NCBI RefSeq assembly: GCF_900637515.1
Contig: NZ_LR134375.1
Location: 1,741,001-1,805,000, forward strand
Reading direction: 5' to 3'
Origin: Veillonella dispar
GTDB lineage: Bacteria; Bacillota; Negativicutes; Veillonellales; Veillonellaceae
DNA: 64,000 nucleotides
Position numbers and translations under genes: made by a program. The notes beneath the pieces were generated by a model that had not been told where the DNA came from, made no database searches, and saw nothing but the letters and a program-made list of their open reading frames with translations. Shown here in pieces: positions 2,263 through 14,103 of the stretch; within the stretch, counting starts at the first letter, position 1, and each line of letters begins with the position of its first letter.

Positions 2263-2604
2263 ATGGTCAAATTTAATACTAGCCAAAAAGAAATAACATT
2301 AGAAGAAATTCAAAATATTACTACGCCACTATTCAAAAAATATGGTTTTAAATCAGCTTATTTATTTGGTTATTATGCCTCTAACACAACAATTATCGAT
2401 ATTGATATAGAATTTATGGTAGAAGACTCTGATAAAACTGAAGAGTTAGATATGTTAGACTGGTATGATATGATTGATGATTTTGAACATACGCTTCAAC
2501 TACCTTGTCAAATCACAGATATAGATATTTTAAAATCTGATAATCATAACTACCTAAAGAAAAAATATTACGATAAATCTATTTTAATTTATAAGGAAAA
2601 TTGA
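2263..2604 (+). CDS. Degenerate MNT-type nucleotidyltransferase-like protein
   Basis: This 113-residue protein resembles minimal nucleotidyltransferase (MNT/MntA antitoxin-like) domains. Residues 33-57 read AYLFGYYASNTTIIDIDIEF, which lines up with the family pattern LFGSxARGxxxxxSDIDL. The usual GS is GY, and the D-x-D pair is only partly kept (DIDIE), so it may be catalytically dead. In the family this domain adenylylates a HEPN toxin or acts as antitoxin; no HEPN partner is present here. An AGGAGGC site stands 7 bases before the ATG. Its 3' end overlaps the tail of the zeta remnant on the other strand. Base composition is very AT-rich, consistent with acquired DNA. Confidence 0.6.
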   Translation: MVKFNTSQKEITLEEIQNITTPLFKKYGFKSAYLFGYYASNTTIIDIDIEFMVEDSDKTEELDMLDWYDMIDDFEHTLQLPCQITDIDILKSDNHNYLKKKYYDKSILIYKEN

Positions 2605-2925
2605 AGTAGCTCAACAAAGGGCCTGTAACAAAACCTATATCTGCCCCAACTAACTTTTGCAATTTAACAAAATTAGGATGATATCTTCTAAATTGATCAC
2701 CATCAATGACTAATAAATTATTATTCAATCTTTCTTTTGCTAACTCTACAAAAACGGATTTACCAGCACCAGGTGTTCCCCAGTAACAATACCTTCTGGT
2801 TTATCTACTGGTGATAATGCATTATATTTTTTTGTAATTATATCTTTCCAGATTTTTTCAGTAGCTTCTAAGGCTTTTTTCTCTGTAAATGATTGTAAAT
2901 CTTTTACTTTATCTATATTATCCAT
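2579..2925 (-). pseudogene. Frameshifted, truncated zeta-toxin remnant
   Basis: Reading left from the ATG at 2923-2925, the frame gives MDNIDKVKDLQSFTEKKALE and on to GIVTG. A one-base loss in the run of C at 2778-2781 then breaks it. In the shifted frame it continues TPGAGKSVFVELAKERL, a Walker A loop, and VIDGDQFRRYHPNF, the conserved substrate-side motif of zeta toxins (UDP-N-acetylglucosamine kinases). Nothing recognisable follows about base 2620, so at least half of a normal zeta domain is missing. The start overlaps the stop of the upstream antitoxin-like gene by 8 bases, a coupling typical of toxin-antitoxin pairs. It should make no active toxin. Confidence 0.8.
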
Positions 2926-3136
2926 TATTAATGCCTTCTAATATTGCTTGCTTATCTTTTATAAATTTTATCTCTTTTTGATACTCTATGTCTTCTGGCT
3001 TTAATCCATATAATTCGTCTCTTTTATAAATTAAAGATAATCTATCTGGGTTCTCAAATTCAACAGTTTTAGAAGTTAAGCCTAAAATATGTGAAATAAG
3101 TTCGATCAATACATACTTTTCCATAAATGTAGCCAT
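2918..3136 (-). CDS. Antitoxin-like small protein, array copy 4 (next to the zeta remnant)
   Basis: This 72-residue acidic protein starts MATFMEKYVLIELISHILGL and ends AILEGINNG. It is one of four tandem paralogues sharing MATxMxKxVLxE at the start, a central LYG-x-x-PEE/PED-I-x-Y motif, and an FIKDKxAILE tail. The stop codon overlaps the zeta-toxin start, so its position is that of the cognate antitoxin. The internal ATG was chosen over an upstream one because all four copies align from MAT. Its function as an antitoxin is inferred from position, size and the zeta partner; the family is not recognised by name. Confidence 0.65.
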   Translation of the reverse strand: MATFMEKYVLIELISHILGLTSKTVEFENPDRLSLIYKRDELYGLKPEDIEYQKEIKFIKDKQAILEGINNG

Positions 3137-3493
3137 AATAATACATCTTTTCACTAACCAAAATAAATATTATCCACAAAAGTTATATTAGTTACTAATA
3201 CTTTCTAATATAGCTTTTTTTTCTTTAATAAAATCTACTTCTTTTTCATAATCTATTTCTTCTGGGCTCAATCCATACAATTTACCTTGTAAACGAAGTA
3301 GTGAAATAACATCTTTGTTATCAACATCAACATCACGAGCTGTTACAGCAACTACATGACTAATAAACTCAATTAATACATCTTTCTCCATCCAAGTAGC
3401 CATAATAATACCTCTTTTCACTAACGAAACAAATATTATCCACAAAAGTTATATTAGTTACTAATACTTTCTAATATAGCTTTTTTATCTTTA
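3131..3493 (-). repeat. Near-identical direct repeats across antitoxin-like genes
   Basis: The stretch 3131-3230 (start region of copy 4, the intergenic gap and the 3' end of copy 3) is almost the same as 3398-3493 (the matching junction one gene upstream). The shared core includes TATTATCCACAAAAGTTATA and TAGTTACTAATACTTTCTAA. The spacers between the genes are better conserved than the gene middles. This points to tandem duplication by recombination in the junctions, followed by divergence or selection on the coding parts. Confidence 0.8.
3188..3403 (-). CDS. Antitoxin-like small protein, array copy 3
   Basis: This 71-residue paralogue begins MATWMEKDVLIEFISHVVAV and ends AILESISN. The LYGLSPEEIDYEKE centre and FIKEKKAILE tail match the other copies; the middle (residues 22-40, DVDVDNKDVIS) diverges most. 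The start at MAT is preceded by AGAGGT about 8 bases upstream and matches its siblings, whereas the longer open frame begins with 14 unrelated residues. A 51-base spacer separates it from copy 4. No toxin gene of its own lies beside it. Confidence 0.62.
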   Translation of the reverse strand: MATWMEKDVLIEFISHVVAVTARDVDVDNKDVISLLRLQGKLYGLSPEEIDYEKEVDFIKEKKAILESISN

Positions 3494-3669
3494 ATAAATG
3501 ACAATTCTTCTTTATAGTTTATTTCTTCTGGCTCCATACCATATAATTTATTTCTTAATTCTAGTAACTCTATTCTTGCAGGATGATCTAAATTATTATT
3601 ATACGCAGTTAATCCTAGTGCAGTTGAAATACACTCAATTAAAACATCTTTTTCCATAAATGTAGCCAT
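3454..3669 (-). CDS. Antitoxin-like small protein, array copy 2
   Basis: This 71-residue paralogue begins MATFMEKDVLIECISTALGL and ends AILESISN, with LYGMEPEEINYKEE in the middle. The N- and C-terminal ends are nearly the same as copy 3, but residues 22-40 differ. If these are antitoxins, the variable middle may set partner specificity; that is inference. It is read leftward as part of the four-gene run, with a 50-base spacer to copy 3. Confidence 0.62.
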   Translation of the reverse strand: MATFMEKDVLIECISTALGLTAYNNNLDHPARIELLELRNKLYGMEPEEINYKEELSFIKDKKAILESISN

Positions 3670-3765
3670 AATCAATTACTCCTATTTATTCATTTTGTCC
3701 ATGTAATCACGTAACAACATACGAATTGTTTTAATTGTTTCTCAACATTACCATCAATCATTATT

Positions 3766-3969
3766 TTAGCCTTTATATGTTTCAATAACTTGTTTAATAT
3801 ATTGACTCATCTCATTAAAGTCCAATTCTTCTGGAACAGAGCAATATATTTTTTCTTTCAAATCTAATAAAACTTCTCTATCTTTACTATTAGGATTTTT
3901 ATTAATAACATATCCTAAAGCTTGAAATACACCTTCTAATAAAACATCTTTTTGCATTAAAGTAGCCAT
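3766..3969 (-). CDS. Antitoxin-like small protein, array copy 1 (most divergent)
   Basis: This 67-residue protein begins MATLMQKDVLLEGVFQALGY and carries VPEELDFNEMSQYIKQVIE, matching the paralogues' PEE-I-x-Y and FIKxK regions but lacking the AILE tail. It is first in the leftward run, so the promoter for the array should lie within 3970-4050, which is nearly pure A/T. A GGAGGAA ribosome-binding site precedes the ATG. The bases 3670-3765 after it hold an AT-rich stretch in which a short frame resembling MDKMNK can be read; nothing there can be supported as a gene. Confidence 0.6.
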   Translation of the reverse strand: MATLMQKDVLLEGVFQALGYVINKNPNSKDREVLLDLKEKIYCSVPEELDFNEMSQYIKQVIETYKG

Positions 3970-4051
3970 ATTCTTCCTCCTATATACATTATTTCTATAA
4001 CTATATTATATAGTATAGTTTTATATAAAAATATTATTTTACATAAAATAG

Positions 4052-4077
4052 AAGGGGCTGTAACAAAACAGCCCCTT
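4052..4077 (-). terminator. Intrinsic terminator after the restriction-modification genes
   Basis: AAGGGGCTG (4052-4060) pairs with CAGCCCCTT (4069-4077) around an 8-base loop, followed on the minus strand by TCTATTTTATG. It sits 21 bases past the methyltransferase stop and separates that operon from the antitoxin-like array, so the array probably has its own promoter. Confidence 0.75.
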
Positions 4078-4097: not shown

Positions 4098-5390
4098 TTA
4101 CTTATCAATTTTTTGTAGTTCATCACCAATACGTTTTACGATACCGGTTACCAATGCATTCCCCATAAAGAACATACGCATACGATCAGAAACCTCTACT
4201 ACTTCACCTTTCGCATTACGTTTATAGCGTGTCCAATCATCAGGAAAGTCTTGCAAGCGCTCAGCTTCAATTGGAGTAATGAGACGATATTTACCATTAA
4301 TTTTCAAAAGATGTGTAGAGCGATTTACACTACCTTCAGAAGTAAGCATTGTACGCCCCGGCAGATCAAGAGAGTCATATTTACTCATACCACCTTCAGA
4401 GAAAGTATAAGTATGTCCATTAGCTGCAGTCCGTGTAATTTTCTTAGGCCCCCGAAGATATTTAAACTTCTCTAATTTTTCACCATCAATATAATACTCT
4501 TCTGGCACTTGATCAGGTGAAACCACAATCTCTTTCATTGGTATTGGTTCTTCATCACTTTTAGGTTCAGTTTCAATCGTATAATAGTACCCGTTTGTCA
4601 TGAGTCCAGAGTTCCACATTTTACCATCTGAAAAGTTTGCAGAAACTTCAGCAATATCATCATCAAGCTTATTTGCATTAATACGTTTCTTAACTGCTTC
4701 ACCTTTAACAGGGAATTGACGAGCAAAAAGCCCATCTTGAAAGATATAAGGTGTATAACAAGCTAAACGAGTACCTAAATCGGCATCAGTAGGCAATGTG
4801 GCTTCATATTTAGTATGTAGTCGTTTTCCCCACTTTGTATCATTTCTAAATACAAAGAAGAACACACGACGTCTCCGTTGTGCACGACCATAGTCAGCAG
4901 CATTGATAACACGCCACTCCACAGAATAACCTAATTGATTGAAAGCAGCCAACATAATCGCAAAGTCACGACCACGTTGGTTGGAAGGAGCCTTCAATAA
5001 ACGGTCAACATTTTCTAAAACCAAATACTTAGGTCTAATTACCTCAGTAGCACGGATAATTTCCCAGAAAAGAACGCCTTTTTTCCCTTCAATACCAAGC
5101 TCATTCTTTTTACTACGTGCTACAGAATAGTCTTGGCAAGGAAAGCCTCCAACAATCATATCTACGCCATTAGATTTCATTTCCCCAAACTTTTCATTTG
5201 GAATTAAAGCTACATCGGTTGGAATATGTTCCATATCAGGAAATCTATACAAACCTACTTCATAGGCATCCTGAGTCTTACGAGATGGCTCATACTGGTT
5301 AGAATATAGCGTTTGGAAAACTTCTTTAGACGAATTCTCTAACCCTACTATAAACCCACCTACACCATCAAACATAGAGAATATTTTCAT
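4098..5390 (-). CDS. Type II DNA (cytosine-5) methyltransferase
   Basis: This 430-residue protein has the ordered C5-methyltransferase motifs: I (FSMFDGVGGF, residues 4-13), IV with catalytic Cys85 (GGFPCQDYS), VI (ENVDRL, from residue 127), VIII (RAQRRRRVFF), IX (ERLQDFPDDW) and X (MGNALVTGIV). It transfers a methyl group from S-adenosylmethionine to C5 of cytosine and protects host DNA. The start at 5390 has AGGGG about 7 bases upstream and begins exactly at motif I; a longer frame to 5462 adds an unrelated hydrophobic stretch. It is last of three genes with the Sau3AI-type nuclease, so the site is inferred to be GATC. Confidence 0.92.
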   Translation of the reverse strand: MKIFSMFDGVGGFIVGLENSSKEVFQTLYSNQYEPSRKTQDAYEVGLYRFPDMEHIPTDVALIPNEKFGEMKSNGVDMIVGGFPCQDYSVARSKKNELGIEGKKGVLFWEIIRATEVIRPKYLVLENVDRLLKAPSNQRGRDFAIMLAAFNQLGYSVEWRVINAADYGRAQRRRRVFFFVFRNDTKWGKRLHTKYEATLPTDADLGTRLACYTPYIFQDGLFARQFPVKGEAVKKRINANKLDDDIAEVSANFSDGKMWNSGLMTNGYYYTIETEPKSDEEPIPMKEIVVSPDQVPEEYYIDGEKLEKFKYLRGPKKITRTAANGHTYTFSEGGMSKYDSLDLPGRTMLTSEGSVNRSTHLLKINGKYRLITPIEAERLQDFPDDWTRYKRNAKGEVVEVSDRMRMFFMGNALVTGIVKRIGDELQKIDK

Positions 5391-5471
5391 TACTTTACCC
5401 CTTAATTTATCAACTTCATAGATCCTTATTATAGCAGAAATACTAAAAAAGATCAAGATCAAATTTAGGCA

Positions 5472-6302
5472 TTATTTTTTAGATACAGATTTTTTTACCT
5501 CTACACCTTCAGGAGTAACAATCCAATAACTGTTAGCCAAGTTGATTAAATCTTCACGTTTAATAACTATATTTAAAGGCTGTTCATAGAGCTTCTCAGG
5601 TAAGGTTAAAACCCACTGAGGATATTTTCTTGCAACCAATAAATCAGTATCAAATTGTAAATGTGCCTTATTATAGTCAGGTCTATCGTCTAAAGCATTA
5701 ATTAAAGAATCCAATTGATGTTCCAATTCTAAACGATATACTCCACGCTCTTTCATTTTTTTACGTAATATATCCGCTTTAGACTCAAATGTTTTAACCT
5801 CTTTATTGCCCATAGCACGCATTATAAGTTTATCTCTTATCTTTACTTTAGGAATTGACAATACTTCGATTTTTAGAATATCCTCACAGCCTAAATTATA
5901 TTTATTAGCATCAGGTTTAATCCAAAGCCAGCAAAGAAAATAAGCATGTGTCTCCTTATACTTTTCATTTGTAAGCCAGCCTCGCTTTAGTTCTCCATCT
6001 TTTAAATAAGAAACTTCAAAAGCAAACGTTGATAAAGGCTTATCACCCAAATTGTTTCTAGCATAGTGTATAGCTGCCTTTTCATCAATATTAATACATC
6101 TTGCCGCTTCTTCAGTCTCATCATTAATTATATACATAATTGTATCAATACCTTTGTGTTGTTGATCCAATGTTGTATTAGAATTAAAAGAATCAATTAT
6201 CCCATCATCAACTAAATAACTATACAAATACTTTCGTAAAAATTCATTTACTGCTCTCTCACTTTTTAAATCACCTTTAAAGGTAGATTTTCTCTCTGCC
6301 AT
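5472..6302 (-). CDS. Unrecognised protein inside the restriction-modification operon
   Basis: This 276-residue protein sits between the endonuclease gene (7 bases upstream) and the methyltransferase (81 bases to its chosen start), so it is part of the system. Residues 47-75 include QQHKGIDTIMYI and INIDEKAAIHYAR, followed by STFAFEVSYL. The spacing of D, D-E-K and E resembles the core of a PD-(D/E)XK nuclease fold; this is a weak resemblance by eye. There is no signal peptide or membrane segment, and the C-terminal half is charged and helical. It could be a second nuclease, a specificity or accessory subunit, or a nicking enzyme. The function is unknown. Confidence 0.6.
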   Translation of the reverse strand: MAERKSTFKGDLKSERAVNEFLRKYLYSYLVDDGIIDSFNSNTTLDQQHKGIDTIMYIINDETEEAARCINIDEKAAIHYARNNLGDKPLSTFAFEVSYLKDGELKRGWLTNEKYKETHAYFLCWLWIKPDANKYNLGCEDILKIEVLSIPKVKIRDKLIMRAMGNKEVKTFESKADILRKKMKERGVYRLELEHQLDSLINALDDRPDYNKAHLQFDTDLLVARKYPQWVLTLPEKLYEQPLNIVIKREDLINLANSYWIVTPEGVEVKKSVSKK

Positions 6303-6309
6303 AAGCCCC

Positions 6310-7695
6310 TCAACTTAACTCTTTTACTATTTCTGCTATATACTCTCTATTTAACCAATAGCATTGTTTTGTTATACGTTGTCCATCTGGTAATTCTACT
6401 TGATCCTTTCCATCTCTAGCCTTAGGTCGAATATGACAAATCCCATTAAAGCTAGCACCTGGCAAGTTATTTGATACGCCATTACGTACAAACTTAAGTT
6501 CAACGCCAGTTTCTAAAATTGATTTTGTAGTTTTCCAAAGGTCTTTTAATTCATGTTCAATGACAACTTCTGGCATATTCCAAAGCATAATACCTTTTAA
6601 GTAAGGTTCTCTATTTTTATTTTCCTTCTCAGTCTCATCATATTGAAATACTACAAATAGATATTTTGTATACTCAAATTTTTCATAAAGCTGAGAGTTT
6701 TCCCATGCATCGTTAACCCAACGATGAAAGTCTATTTGTTCAAAGGATATGTGTTCCTTTGGAATTCCAGTAGGCTCAAGCCGTATGGTTTTAAACTTAA
6801 TATTTGCTTTACTAAATTCTCTAAGTGATTCTAACTTGGTCCCTTTTACACCCAAAACCGCACTAATAAGATTGGCATTAAAAGCCTTATTTTTAGTTAC
6901 TGGAATATCTACGAGTTTTGCAATTTCAGATACTCGTTTACCAATATATGGAGCGAATCGTTCTTGTAATAATTGTAATGTAGTCTTACTTTTAAGTTCA
7001 TTAACATTAAATAGTGATGGTATTAATTGTCTATCAATAACACGGCGAGCAAAGGCAGACATGTAAGAACTTTTAAGAGAAAATGCACGTTGTTTAGCTA
7101 GTATATTAGAAAATGGTTGTTTTCTTATGGACTTAGCATTAGCCCCTTTAGTACAGGCAGCCAAATACATCGTATCGCCTTCCGAAATATTATGGGCCTC
7201 ACCAGCTTTAATCTTATCTATAATAGTTTGCCAATCCTGTTTTATAATTTCTAAATCCACAGGATCAAAATTATGTAAGACCGACTTTATGATAGGAAAA
7301 TCCTTTTTATCTAATTCATCTTTATATAAGTAGAAAATAATTAGTAAATTCTTATTTTTTTGCCAAAATGATGATTCTTCAAAAGAGTCTTTATAATCCT
7401 CTTCATAGTTAATAATATTTAAAACTAACCGTTCTTTTGCAGAGAAGTCATTCTTTTTATTTTCTTTTATAGCAGTAACTTTTAGCTCCAAACCCAAATC
7501 AACAAAGTCTGCTTCTGCTCTGCTATTAACGGCCATTTTAAATAAGCCTTCTTCTAAAACCTGACCTATACCGCCCTTGTTTCCCCTACTATCCAGGCGA
7601 TTATTTATATCAAACTCACCAACAGTTTTACCCTCTGCAGATTCGGCTATATCTAATACTTCTTCAATGGAGTTATAAATCTTATCCGTGCTCAT
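6310..7695 (-). CDS. Sau3AI/MutH-type restriction endonuclease (predicted GATC-specific)
   Basis: This 461-residue protein has an N-terminal MutH-like catalytic region: KGGIGQVLEE at residues 40-49, then the metal site in EADFVDLGLELKVT, with Asp63, Glu70 and Lys72 spaced as in the D-x6-E-x-K motif of MutH and Sau3AI. The second half (about residues 240-461) corresponds to the second, regulatory MutH-like domain of Sau3AI. Length is close to Sau3AI. The family cleaves before GATC; the site here is inferred. The start at 7695 has GGAGGGG 7 bases upstream; an upstream TTG is in frame but less likely. It is first gene of the three-gene operon. Confidence 0.85.
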   Translation of the reverse strand: MSTDKIYNSIEEVLDIAESAEGKTVGEFDINNRLDSRGNKGGIGQVLEEGLFKMAVNSRAEADFVDLGLELKVTAIKENKKNDFSAKERLVLNIINYEEDYKDSFEESSFWQKNKNLLIIFYLYKDELDKKDFPIIKSVLHNFDPVDLEIIKQDWQTIIDKIKAGEAHNISEGDTMYLAACTKGANAKSIRKQPFSNILAKQRAFSLKSSYMSAFARRVIDRQLIPSLFNVNELKSKTTLQLLQERFAPYIGKRVSEIAKLVDIPVTKNKAFNANLISAVLGVKGTKLESLREFSKANIKFKTIRLEPTGIPKEHISFEQIDFHRWVNDAWENSQLYEKFEYTKYLFVVFQYDETEKENKNREPYLKGIMLWNMPEVVIEHELKDLWKTTKSILETGVELKFVRNGVSNNLPGASFNGICHIRPKARDGKDQVELPDGQRITKQCYWLNREYIAEIVKELS

Positions 7696-7864
7696 TAAAA
7701 TCCCCTCCAATCATATATATGTAAATTATATCAAAGGTATTAAGAAATATACTAATTTAACTTTCACAGAGTATATTCATCTATAAATAGCGAATTATAA
7801 ATATTAATATATGTTCATATCCAATGATTTCATCTATTCCTTATGATTCTCCACTCTATACGTC

Positions 7865-7950
7865 TTTTTTGGGACGTAAGTTTATGATATAATATAACTA
7901 ATTACTCTTAGGGGCGTAGTCCGCCCAAACGGATCCAAAAAGAGTTAGTG
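7865..7950 (+). promoter_or_regulatory. Promoter and structured 5' leader of the DUF3829 gene
   Basis: A TATAAT box lies at 7888-7893, with a T-run 17 bases upstream (7865-7870) as a weak -35. The transcribed leader holds GGGCG/CGCCC (a 5-bp stem around TAGTC, near 7912-7926), a GGATCC self-pairing site, and outer arms ACTAATTACTCTT and AAGAGTTAGT that can close the structure with a three-base bulge. A Shine-Dalgarno AAGGAG follows at about 7958. It matches no riboswitch class I recognise. Confidence 0.45.
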
Positions 7951-7972
7951 TATTTTCAAGGAGCGTGCGCAG

Positions 7973-8908
7973 TTGAAAAAGGGGTACATCAAGTTAATAG
8001 CAGCCGTTATACTTGGCATCGCTATTATCGGTGGTGGGATCTACGGGGTGTATACACTCTTGTCATCCAATACAACGACAATTTTATATCGATCAACCGT
8101 TGACGACAAGATCAACGCTATCCGACCTTATATCGTCGCATTAGACTCATATAACGCGTACAGTGTAGCCTATGCAAATCAATTACAACCAACTCTTGAA
8201 GAGTTACGTAATGGGTCCCATAACACGACGATTACATTACCTAAATACAAAGATCTTAAAACAGCATTAGAGGCTGCAAAGCAAGATAGCCCTACTCCAT
8301 ACGAAGATGTAAACCAATCAACTAATGATGTATTAGCAGTGCTAGATCAATTGATTCCTGTTGCGGATCAATTGCAAGCCTACTATGTAGAACGTCGTTT
8401 TGAAAAAGATAATTTCAAAGGTAGCGATGAGTTAGCGGCACAGTATGTACCTCTAGCTGAACAATTCTACGCTACATACAATGCTTTAGATTTAGCCTTA
8501 GATAATCGTAATAATGAGCTCTATACAGAACGCATGACTGAATATCAAGGTGAAAAACGTGAAAATGCAGTTAACTTCATCGAGTTAAATCTCATGACTG
8601 CCCAAACAATCGATCTTATCGATCCAGATGGAAATACGGATACCCAAAAGGTTGAAGCAAACTTGCAACAAATCACGCAACGCATCAACAAATTACAACC
8701 TGGTACAACATCAGAAACGCAAAACGCAGTTCGCGAGTATCAAGATTCTGTAAAAGAGTTTGTCGCAGAGGCTCGCAACTATATCATCATCAATTCTTCC
8801 TACGGCGAAGCATATACACAACTATTTATTAAATATAACAAAATGGTTGGCAAAGCAAATGTCGTGAATATGGCAGAGCTTGATGCAACAGATCAAAAGA
8901 AAAAATAA
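7973..8908 (+). CDS. DUF3829-family (YiiG-like) membrane-anchored protein
   Basis: This 311-residue protein starts with a basic end and one hydrophobic segment (residues 6-29, rich in I/A/G), likely an uncleaved anchor or signal. The rest is helical, with features of DUF3829: DKINAIRPYIVALDSYN near residue 45, then YYVERRFEKDNFKG (around 138-151), the family's central motif, and a C-terminal helix. The biochemical role of the family is unknown. The start is TTG at 7973, supported by AAGGAG ten bases upstream. It is monocistronic, with a structured leader before it and a strong terminator after it. Confidence 0.75.
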   Translation: MKKGYIKLIAAVILGIAIIGGGIYGVYTLLSSNTTTILYRSTVDDKINAIRPYIVALDSYNAYSVAYANQLQPTLEELRNGSHNTTITLPKYKDLKTALEAAKQDSPTPYEDVNQSTNDVLAVLDQLIPVADQLQAYYVERRFEKDNFKGSDELAAQYVPLAEQFYATYNALDLALDNRNNELYTERMTEYQGEKRENAVNFIELNLMTAQTIDLIDPDGNTDTQKVEANLQQITQRINKLQPGTTSETQNAVREYQDSVKEFVAEARNYIIINSSYGEAYTQLFIKYNKMVGKANVVNMAELDATDQKKK

Positions 8909-9014: not shown

Positions 9015-10443
9015 TTATTTCCGTTTTAAGTCTTTTGTAATGATATAGTATTCAGATGGAGATATCTTAATACCATCGATATTGTTATTCCCTACAATAT
9101 TAATCTTAGGATATCCAAGGAAGAGTGCTATCGAATCATCTAGCATCAATTGTTGTGCATTGATCACCGCATTACGACGAACCACTGGATCATTAGCGCT
9201 TTCACCAAGAGCCAACAATTCATCGAAACGTGGATTAGAGAATCCAGAACCATTTGCCTCAGCACCGGTCCCCCAGTATTGTTTCAAGAACCATACAGGT
9301 TGGCCAGTATTAGCAGTAACTACACTAGAGATGAGCATATCGTAATCCCCAGATTGCGCCAATGTATCAATCACAGCATAGTCTATGATTTTAATTTGTA
9401 AATCTACACCGATTTTTTTGTAGTCCGCTTGTAATGCCTCTGCATATAATGGCAATTCAGGACGAGATGTATAGGCATAGAAATCAAGCACTAGGTTTTC
9501 ACCATCTTTATCTACAATCCCATCACCATTTGTATCAATATAACCTTCACGTTTAAGTAATTCTTTAGCACGTTCAACATTATATTTATTAGGATCCCGC
9601 AATTGATTGAATCCATAATCAATGGACGGTGGCAATGGAGCCTTACCGGCAATAAAGGTATCCTTCATAAGCTTCTTTGCATAGGACTCACGATTCGCTC
9701 CGGCAATGAGGGCCGCTCAAAGATTAGCATTCTTAAGCTTGCCTTTTTGGCTCATCCGAACGAATACATCACGTAAAGATGATTCTTCATAAATAGTAAA
9801 TTTCTTATCGTTTTGGAAGATACCATATTCGCCAGGTCCAATGCTAACGGCCATATCTACATCACCCGCTTGCAATGCCATAGCTCGTGTATTGGCATCG
9901 TTAATAGATGGAATTTCAACCTTAGCAAAGCCTGGCTTGCCATCCCAATAGTTATCATTCCGTGCTAGCTCAGCACGCTCTTTTGTAAATGATGTCACTA
10001 CATAAGGACCAGTACCAATAGGACCTTCCTTCGCAATATCACGACCATTTGCCTCAGCAGTTACATCCATAACAAGGAACAATGGATCCCCCAACAAGTT
10101 TGGCAAATTATAATAAGGCTTATCGGTCTTAATTGTGAGCTCTTGACCATTAGCCGTCATTTCAGTGTAATTAAAGAATGTTTTTGCCCGTTTACTCTTC
10201 ACAAAGGTTCGTTCCAAAGATGCCTTTACGGCCTCAGCAGTAAGGGCATTACCGTTAGAGAACTTAACCTTATCGTTGATGGTGAAAGTCCAAGTCAGCT
10301 TATCATCACTTTGTTTCCAAGAGGATGCTAACCAGGGTTTAGCATTCATGTGATCATCAAATTTTATTAGTGTTTCCCCTACACCATATCGTACAACGGC
10401 CCAGCATCATACCAATCAGTAACGCCTTACGTAATCCCTTCAT
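9015..10443 (-). pseudogene. Decayed solute-binding protein of the peptide/nickel family
   Basis: This is a degraded second copy of the binding protein at 12386-13954. From 10349 leftward the protein reads MNAKPWLASSWKQSDDKLTW and so on, closely parallel to the intact gene. A TGA at 9717-9719 interrupts it where the intact copy has KVRAA, and the frame then continues correctly to 9015. At the 5' end the signal start MKGLRKALLIGMML (ATG at 10441-10443) jumps in the wrong frame to VVRYGVGETL, so about 45 codons including the lipobox are deleted. Three lesions make function very unlikely. A reassembled C-terminal fragment from an internal start would lack export signals. Confidence 0.88.
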
Positions 10444-13954: not shown

Positions 13955-14103
13955 GTAAAATCTCCTTGTACCATTACATATAAACATAAAACATACACAT
14001 CATGACCACTACAATCTACAATAGTCATAATGGAAAAACCTTATTACCGCCTATTTATATAACAACTTTCACAACACAACCTATAAATAAGCATCACACG
14101 TAA

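Follow-up and report, generated by a model that had tools for sequence, protein, structure and literature searches.

Can a row of antitoxin genes whose toxins have died still be of use to the chromosome that carries it? The question is raised by a locus of Veillonella dispar in a stretch of 64,000 nucleotides (contig NZ_LR134375.1, positions 1,741,001 to 1,805,000; hereafter the window, whose coordinates are used throughout), where four intact tandem paralogues of 67–72 residues lie on the minus strand, from 3969 to 2918, next to the remnant of a zeta toxin gene. An earlier description of the locus, here called the sequence-only reading, had proposed that they are antitoxins forming an immunity array against incoming zeta-type toxins. 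To judge from the alignments presented below, the array is almost surely the chromosomal remnant of a double zeta addiction region from a plasmid of the pVr3468 type, and we consider it probable (roughly 0.7) that the antitoxins of this dead region can still neutralise the zeta toxins of such plasmids, an effect known as anti-addiction.

Four antitoxin genes and two dead toxins

The paralogues are of two types. Copy 1 (3969–3766, 67 residues) is of type 1 and copies 2 (3669–3454, 71 residues), 3 (3403–3188, 71 residues) and 4 (3136–2918, 72 residues) are of type 2; the types correspond to two clades, and each clade also includes a plasmid sequence and a solitary (orphan) gene of Megasphaera. 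All four copies share the N-terminal motif MATxMxKxVLxE, but the C-terminal FIKxKxAILE, which the sequence-only reading had extended to the whole array, is found in copies 2–4 only, copy 1 ending in YIKQVIETYKG. At the DNA level, copies 2–4 and their spacers form a repeat family of 238 nucleotides (71% and 65% identity, at a spacing of 267 and 266 nucleotides), with repeated intergenic sequence on either side of copy 3, and a block of 62 nucleotides is present in copies 1–4. When the whole genome was searched with one sequence, exactly these four genes were recovered (E values from 7e-42 to 3e-5) and nothing else convincing. Chance similarity is ruled out, since such a search retrieves the other three copies at E values of 3e-21 to 3e-5, and so is the recent tandem duplication of a single gene, as the proteins of copies 2–4 are only 55–61% identical; the latter is also contradicted by the position of copy 1 in another clade and by the presence of the two-type layout on pVr3468.

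No working toxin accompanies these genes. The remnant of zeta toxin 2 (2616–2925, minus strand) overlaps the end of copy 4 by eight bases (2918 against 2925), and it is indeed dead, as had been supposed: a frameshift in the Walker A codons leaves two open reading frames (ORFs; 2925–2746 and 2728–2579), and homology to intact zeta stops near 2616, after about 103 of 254 residues. Only the second piece matches Pfam Zeta_toxin (E 7e-4). Zeta toxin 1, absent from the sequence-only reading, persists between copies 1 and 2 as a stub of about 13 codons (approximately 3724–3761, minus strand) that ends at a deletion junction; of the 42 bases from 3765 to 3724, 40 are identical to the start of zeta1 on pVr3468. 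Queried with zeta1 of the plasmid and with a profile built from nine zetas, the genome yielded no intact zeta of this type, the remnant being the sole match. The four copies are thus orphan antitoxins in a genome without the cognate toxin, and they do not constitute a type II toxin–antitoxin operon, which would contain an intact toxin.

Origin from a plasmid of the pVr3468 type

A translated search of plasmids led to pVr3468 of Veillonella rogosae (NZ_CP110419), a 34-kb plasmid with transfer (type IV secretion) genes and with antitoxins that match copy 1 at 97% and copy 3 at 73% identity. Its addiction region begins with an antitoxin–zeta1 pair (8022–7050, with the antitoxin at 7819–8022) and continues in the same direction with MipZ/ParA (6971–6342), a gene for 76 residues (6339–6109), two type-2 antitoxins (6096–5881 and 5830–5621) and zeta2 (5619–4855), and each zeta gene encodes an intact protein of the Zeta_toxin family (E 4e-39). 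Copy 1 is the orthologue of the zeta1 antitoxin, while copies 2 (recognised by a profile match), 3 and 4 are, respectively, 58–59%, 73–74% and 51–54% identical to the zeta2 antitoxins. The high identity between a chromosomal antitoxin and that of a circulating plasmid, by which anti-addiction is recognised, is therefore found in copy 1, with copies 2–4 at 51–74%.

The kinship extends to the DNA. Window positions 4048–3724 correspond to 8103–7777 of the plasmid at 94.8% identity, a segment that comprises antitoxin 1 with its promoter region and some 13 codons from the start of zeta1, and BLASTN blocks align 3197–3726 with 5624–6153 (80.7%) and 2616–3331 with 5308–6024 (77.5%); the remainder of the window has only short matches to pVr3468. 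Because the blocks at 4048–3724 and 3726–3197 match plasmid stretches that are separated from each other, the start of zeta1 must have been joined to the end of the 76-residue gene, whose 3′ tail (3682–3726, minus strand) contains the stop codon of that gene as well as the ribosome-binding site for copy 2. A single deletion thus fused zeta1, at about codon 13, to this tail, with the loss of zeta1 and ParA/MipZ. Relative to pVr3468, zeta1 beyond its first codons, MipZ/ParA and the greater part of the 76-residue gene are gone, and the type-2 antitoxins number three on the chromosome against two on the plasmid. The putative promoter and ribosome-binding region of the array (3970–4048, minus strand; AGGAGG before copy 1) is common to the antitoxin–zeta1 operon of the plasmid, with 57 of the 60 bases upstream of the copy 1 ATG identical.

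The sequence thus shows that an ancestral order of antitoxin 1 and zeta1, ParA/MipZ and the 76-residue gene, and two type-2 antitoxins with zeta2 has become one of antitoxin 1 and three type-2 antitoxins. The deletion placed the type-2 genes behind the promoter of antitoxin 1, and one transcript over all four copies is probable. A phage origin was rejected, as no relative was found in phage records and none was confirmed in viral contigs.

A family of zeta antitoxins

None of the four copies has an above-cut-off family in Pfam, NCBIfam or PADLOC, and the matches of copy 4 to Pfam RuvB_C (E 0.008) and of copy 1 to PADLOC REase_II (E 0.003), being below the cut-off or isolated, were treated as noise. 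The family matches the N-terminal 80 residues or so, beginning with MATxMxKD, of an Escherichia protein that adjoins lysC, is annotated as zeta toxin family protein and is encoded by 1427 of the 5426 complete genomes of E. coli. This protein (L018 in our survey) is almost certainly EzeT, as judged by organism, domain layout and size. It has been shown that EzeT becomes toxic, with activity confined to temperatures below 30 °C (PMC4803016), once its first 83 residues are removed (PMC4803016; PMC4826407) and that EzeT(1–82), supplied separately, restores growth, so that the antitoxin domain works both in cis and in trans (PMC4803016). Since the four copies share a family with this domain, the family is one of zeta antitoxins able to act in trans, at least in EzeT, and the copies themselves are very likely zeta antitoxins.

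Structure prediction is consistent with this assignment. The AlphaFold2 model of the L018 fusion (predicted local distance difference test, pLDDT, 91.3; predicted template modelling score, pTM, 0.88) has helices at residues 4–27, 36–52 and 60–80 followed by a kinase fold, and in a Foldseek search of the PDB the kinase part matches epsilon/zeta 1gvn and PezT 2p5t with E values of 1e-12 to 1e-16 (7e-16 for 1gvn and 1e-14 for 2p5t). Copy 1 alone is predicted to be a three-helix bundle (pLDDT 95.9). A Foldseek search of the PDB with copy 1 gave no significant relative (epsilon, 1gvn_A, at E 5.6), and among PDB chains there was no sequence match of the antitoxin to epsilon or PezA. Kinship with streptococcal epsilon or PezA thus finds no support in sequence, and the predicted bundle does not establish it; kinship with gonococcal epsilon1, whose binding mode differs (PMC5923241), was rejected. 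No DNA-binding domain was found in the copies with any family library scanned.

Additionally, all 15 family members scanned match the first 75 or so positions of phrog_25145 (308 positions, listed as of unknown function). This family is probably an EzeT-like antitoxin–zeta fusion in phages, and indicates that a fused form of the antitoxin exists in some phage family.

Relatives with and without zeta

A profile of the four copies, scanned against genome contigs, found 16 loci in Megasphaera, a Veillonellaceae metagenome-assembled genome, Neisseria, Pasteurellaceae, Treponema, Helicobacter and Enterobacteriaceae. In the Neisseria, Treponema and Helicobacter loci an intact zeta kinase gene comes directly after the small gene; the loci of Escherichia (L018), Pseudocitrobacter (L020) and one Pasteurellaceae (L013) have the family as the N-terminal domain of the zeta protein, and in Megasphaera and others the gene is solitary. 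The survey was extended to genomes of Neisseriaceae, Pasteurellaceae, Campylobacterales, Treponemataceae and Enterobacteriaceae and to plasmid hits, with antitoxin and zeta profiles applied to each locus, and gave 62 antitoxin places, a non-random sample that includes several plasmids. By script, 27 lie beside an intact zeta, six are fused to it, four lie beside a zeta fragment and 25 are without zeta. Two places were corrected by hand, one fused (L089, with zeta in the same 412-residue ORF) and one paired with zeta across a contig end (L074), so that adjacency or fusion rises from 33 of the 62 to about 35 and some 23 remain without zeta. The homologues are therefore not mostly away from zeta, and the antitoxin identity suggested in the sequence-only reading is well supported, also in view of the activity of the EzeT domain in trans.

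The places without a toxin are informative in their own right. At an E value of 1e-5 the zeta profile found nothing in at least 14 other genomes with solitary or broken antitoxins; the exceptions are one genome with three zetas (G447), one with fragments only (G394) and one with a zeta fragment below the cut-off (G444). For instance, Megasphaera micronuciformis carries one orphan of each type, at distant loci, in a genome without zeta, and two chromosomal orphans of Pasteurellaceae resemble antitoxins from plasmids that also carry the toxin, at 87% (L081) and 77% (L082) identity. Resistance plasmids of Pasteurellaceae of 3.4–6.2 kb, namely pB1000 (blaROB-1), pTetHS016 and another with tet(B), have a two-gene unit in which an orphan antitoxin is paired with one of the VbhA family, and have no gene for a toxin (L031 1791–2194, L032 3880–4291 and L033 1645–2056). 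On the plasmids examined, the antitoxin family is annotated as hypothetical protein, and our literature search returned nothing on tandem orphan antitoxins or on VbhA of Pasteurellaceae plasmids.

The same pairing of orphan antitoxin and VbhA was also seen in Neisseria (L008) and Gallibacterium (L009). In Helicobacter (L021, 4001–5387), two successive pairs of antitoxin and truncated zeta (70–71 residues) are followed by a VbhA-like ORF of 77 residues (no Pfam match) and a Fic-like start; this locus represents repeated decay of zeta beside intact antitoxin.

Present function and alternative explanations

If the array acts, each copy would be a small antitoxin of three helices, of the type found at the N-terminus of EzeT, and would bind and block the UDP-N-acetylglucosamine kinase domain of zeta. 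As the array has no toxin of its own to occupy, it would provide a standing pool of antitoxin in the cell, and the zeta of a pVr3468-like plasmid would be neutralised upon entry or loss of that plasmid. Because of what has been established for EzeT, neutralisation of zeta by the free domain is likely, above all for copy 1 and zeta1 of the pVr3468 type, and we regard it as quite likely that copy 1 still neutralises this very toxin. Anti-addiction is thus probable as a present effect. That the array has been kept by selection for it is a different and much more tentative claim, which we lean against.

Substitution patterns bear on the latter. Between copy 1 and the plasmid antitoxin there are five synonymous and two non-synonymous changes, with a ratio of non-synonymous to synonymous rates (dN/dS) of 0.08, and the type-2 copies have ratios of 0.22–0.46 to the plasmid. 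Several observations, nonetheless, weigh against an array that is active and maintained. The low ratio of copy 1 rests on seven changes and is shared with the plasmid branch. The zeta2 remnant also has a low dN/dS relative to the plasmid gene (0.41 overall and 0.22 in its later part); as it keeps the pattern of a functional gene, the toxin was alive for most of the divergence and died recently, and intact antitoxins are consequently no proof of selection. Moreover, loss of the toxin before the antitoxin is the only viable order. At only 51–74% identity to the plasmid antitoxins, cross-neutralisation by copies 2–4 is uncertain. Finally, promoter matches, among them a weak sigma-70-like one at 4029–4000, are at chance level, and there is no conservation to cite, since among 15 Veillonella genomes (one per species) the array is present in one; any member of the family is found in three of the 381 genomes sampled from the class.

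Some of these observations support the explanation that survives best beside anti-addiction, namely passive decay, according to which the antitoxins are leftovers without a present role, intact since toxins go first and little time has elapsed. We regard it as possible, and as falling somewhat short of probable. The recent death of zeta2, with its ratio of 0.22 past the frameshift, the restriction of the array to one species and its location in a variable hot spot, whose cargo differs by species, are all in its favour. By contrast, it does not readily account for two separate toxin inactivations against none of the four antitoxin ORFs, nor for the one type-2 antitoxin more than on the plasmid. 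In addition, Megasphaera keeps both types of orphan without zeta and the Pasteurellaceae chromosomes keep theirs, so that retention without a toxin recurs. Such recurrence of toxin-free members elsewhere is a better, if indirect, argument for a benefit than the substitution patterns of the array.

It may also be that the surplus antitoxins were already directed, on the plasmid, against toxins of rival plasmids and were then inherited by the chromosome. The two tandem antitoxins before the single zeta2 of pVr3468 and the small Pasteurellaceae resistance plasmids with antitoxins and no toxin would fit this proposal, but both plasmid antitoxins could serve zeta2, e.g., through dosage or as a heteromer, and we consider it rather unlikely. 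A role independent of toxins, with another partner or as regulators of neighbouring restriction–modification or plasmid genes, is very improbable: although the array lies directly downstream of a Sau3AI-type restriction–modification operon and surplus tandem antitoxins occur even on pVr3468, no DNA-binding domain was found in any family library, an intrinsic-terminator-like hairpin (4052–4077, minus strand; one found against 0.2 expected) separates the array from the upstream methyltransferase gene, and two Veillonella species (L122 and L123) have at this site only the restriction–modification genes, without the array.

The preferred reading, that of a decayed addiction region with anti-addiction as its remaining effect, leaves the immunity array of the sequence-only reading plausible in one part. 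It now has a concrete opponent, as copy 1 is nearly identical to the antitoxin of pVr3468 zeta1. That the array was built as immunity is unsupported, because it is a decayed addiction region, toxins must die first and the pattern of zeta2 is still that of a functional gene.

Comparison with known systems

The closest characterised relative is EzeT of Escherichia coli (Rocker and Meinhart 2015), in which the antitoxin forms an N-terminal domain and acts in cis on the zeta kinase. The four copies are of the same sequence family as this domain (which starts with MATLMEKD; L018 and L020), but they are four, free-standing and attached to no working toxin. With epsilon/zeta of pSM19035 and PezAT of Streptococcus pneumoniae the array shares a homologous zeta kinase as partner (Pfam Zeta_toxin; Foldseek 1gvn and 2p5t) and the bicistronic order; the antitoxin itself is predicted to be a three-helix bundle like epsilon, but it has no sequence similarity to epsilon or PezA, and the Foldseek match of copy 1 to epsilon is not significant. 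The gonococcal epsilon1/zeta1 is likewise a Gram-negative zeta-type system, on a conjugative plasmid, but epsilon1 is outside the antitoxin family of the array; its bound form is an extended chain, and the topology of zeta1 is rewired (PMC5923241).

pVr3468 has the same gene order and both antitoxin types, and it differs in that both zetas and ParA/MipZ are intact and the type-2 antitoxins are two, whereas the chromosome keeps none of the former intact and has three of the latter. Regarding function, the precedent is ccd of Erwinia chrysanthemi 3937, for which it has been established that a chromosomal antitoxin acts in anti-addiction (PMC2654758). In both cases a chromosomal antitoxin is closely related to a plasmid toxin–antitoxin system; ccdEch, however, is a complete pair with a demonstrated effect (PMC2654758), while the array is toxin-free, belongs to another family and is known here from sequence.

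Chromosomal surroundings

The site of the array, bounded by a rhodanese gene (566–1384) and a gene for 311 residues (7973–8908), is variable. Two other Veillonella species (L119 and L120) have almost nothing at this site, and four (L113–L116) have a NUDIX gene and a PLD–helicase–DUF3427 gene. The latter cargo, in L113 (1468–4781) a NUDIX gene and a 967-residue PLD/ResIII helicase/DUF3427 protein, resembles the defence cargo of a hot spot. In V. dispar, the operon directly upstream of the array (4098–7710, minus strand) is a Sau3AI-family type II restriction–modification operon with a C5 methyltransferase, a 276-residue protein without a family and a Sau3AI-like endonuclease.

Facing the array, a lone gene (2263–2604, plus strand) codes for a nucleotidyltransferase-like protein of 113 residues that matches Polbeta (E 4e-5), PADLOC PDC-S09 (E 2e-6) and, weakly, the MntA antitoxin; no HepT-like partner was seen adjoining it, and 85 bp of the gene are 81% identical to a 287-residue gene of pVr3468. 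Further on, two ORFs (9668–9015 and 10349–9717) jointly resemble the 533-residue solute-binding protein at 13987–12386, so that a gene for an oligopeptide-type binding protein at 9015–10349 appears split.

Implications for Veillonella and for the antitoxin family

Anti-addiction has so far been argued mainly from complete chromosomal toxin–antitoxin pairs. In the present case a toxin-free chromosomal array can be set against a sequenced plasmid from the same genus that bears the matching toxins, which makes anti-addiction directly testable, and the survey provides a functional lead for an unnamed family without a Pfam or NCBIfam model. The orphans on Pasteurellaceae resistance plasmids, e.g., pB1000, suggest that small resistance plasmids may gain by disarming the zeta addiction of larger ones.

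A broader proposal, speculative and on balance unlikely, is that toxin-free antitoxins of the EzeT type are a recurrent immunity class, captured, kept and diversified by chromosomes and small plasmids, sometimes as arrays of variants. If this were true, hosts could shed or outcompete addictive plasmids, and the array of Veillonella would serve as a multi-specific bank in which copy 1 is directed against zeta1 and copies 2–4 against variants of zeta2. For V. dispar itself, the array may protect the cell against related plasmids that kill the cells losing them.

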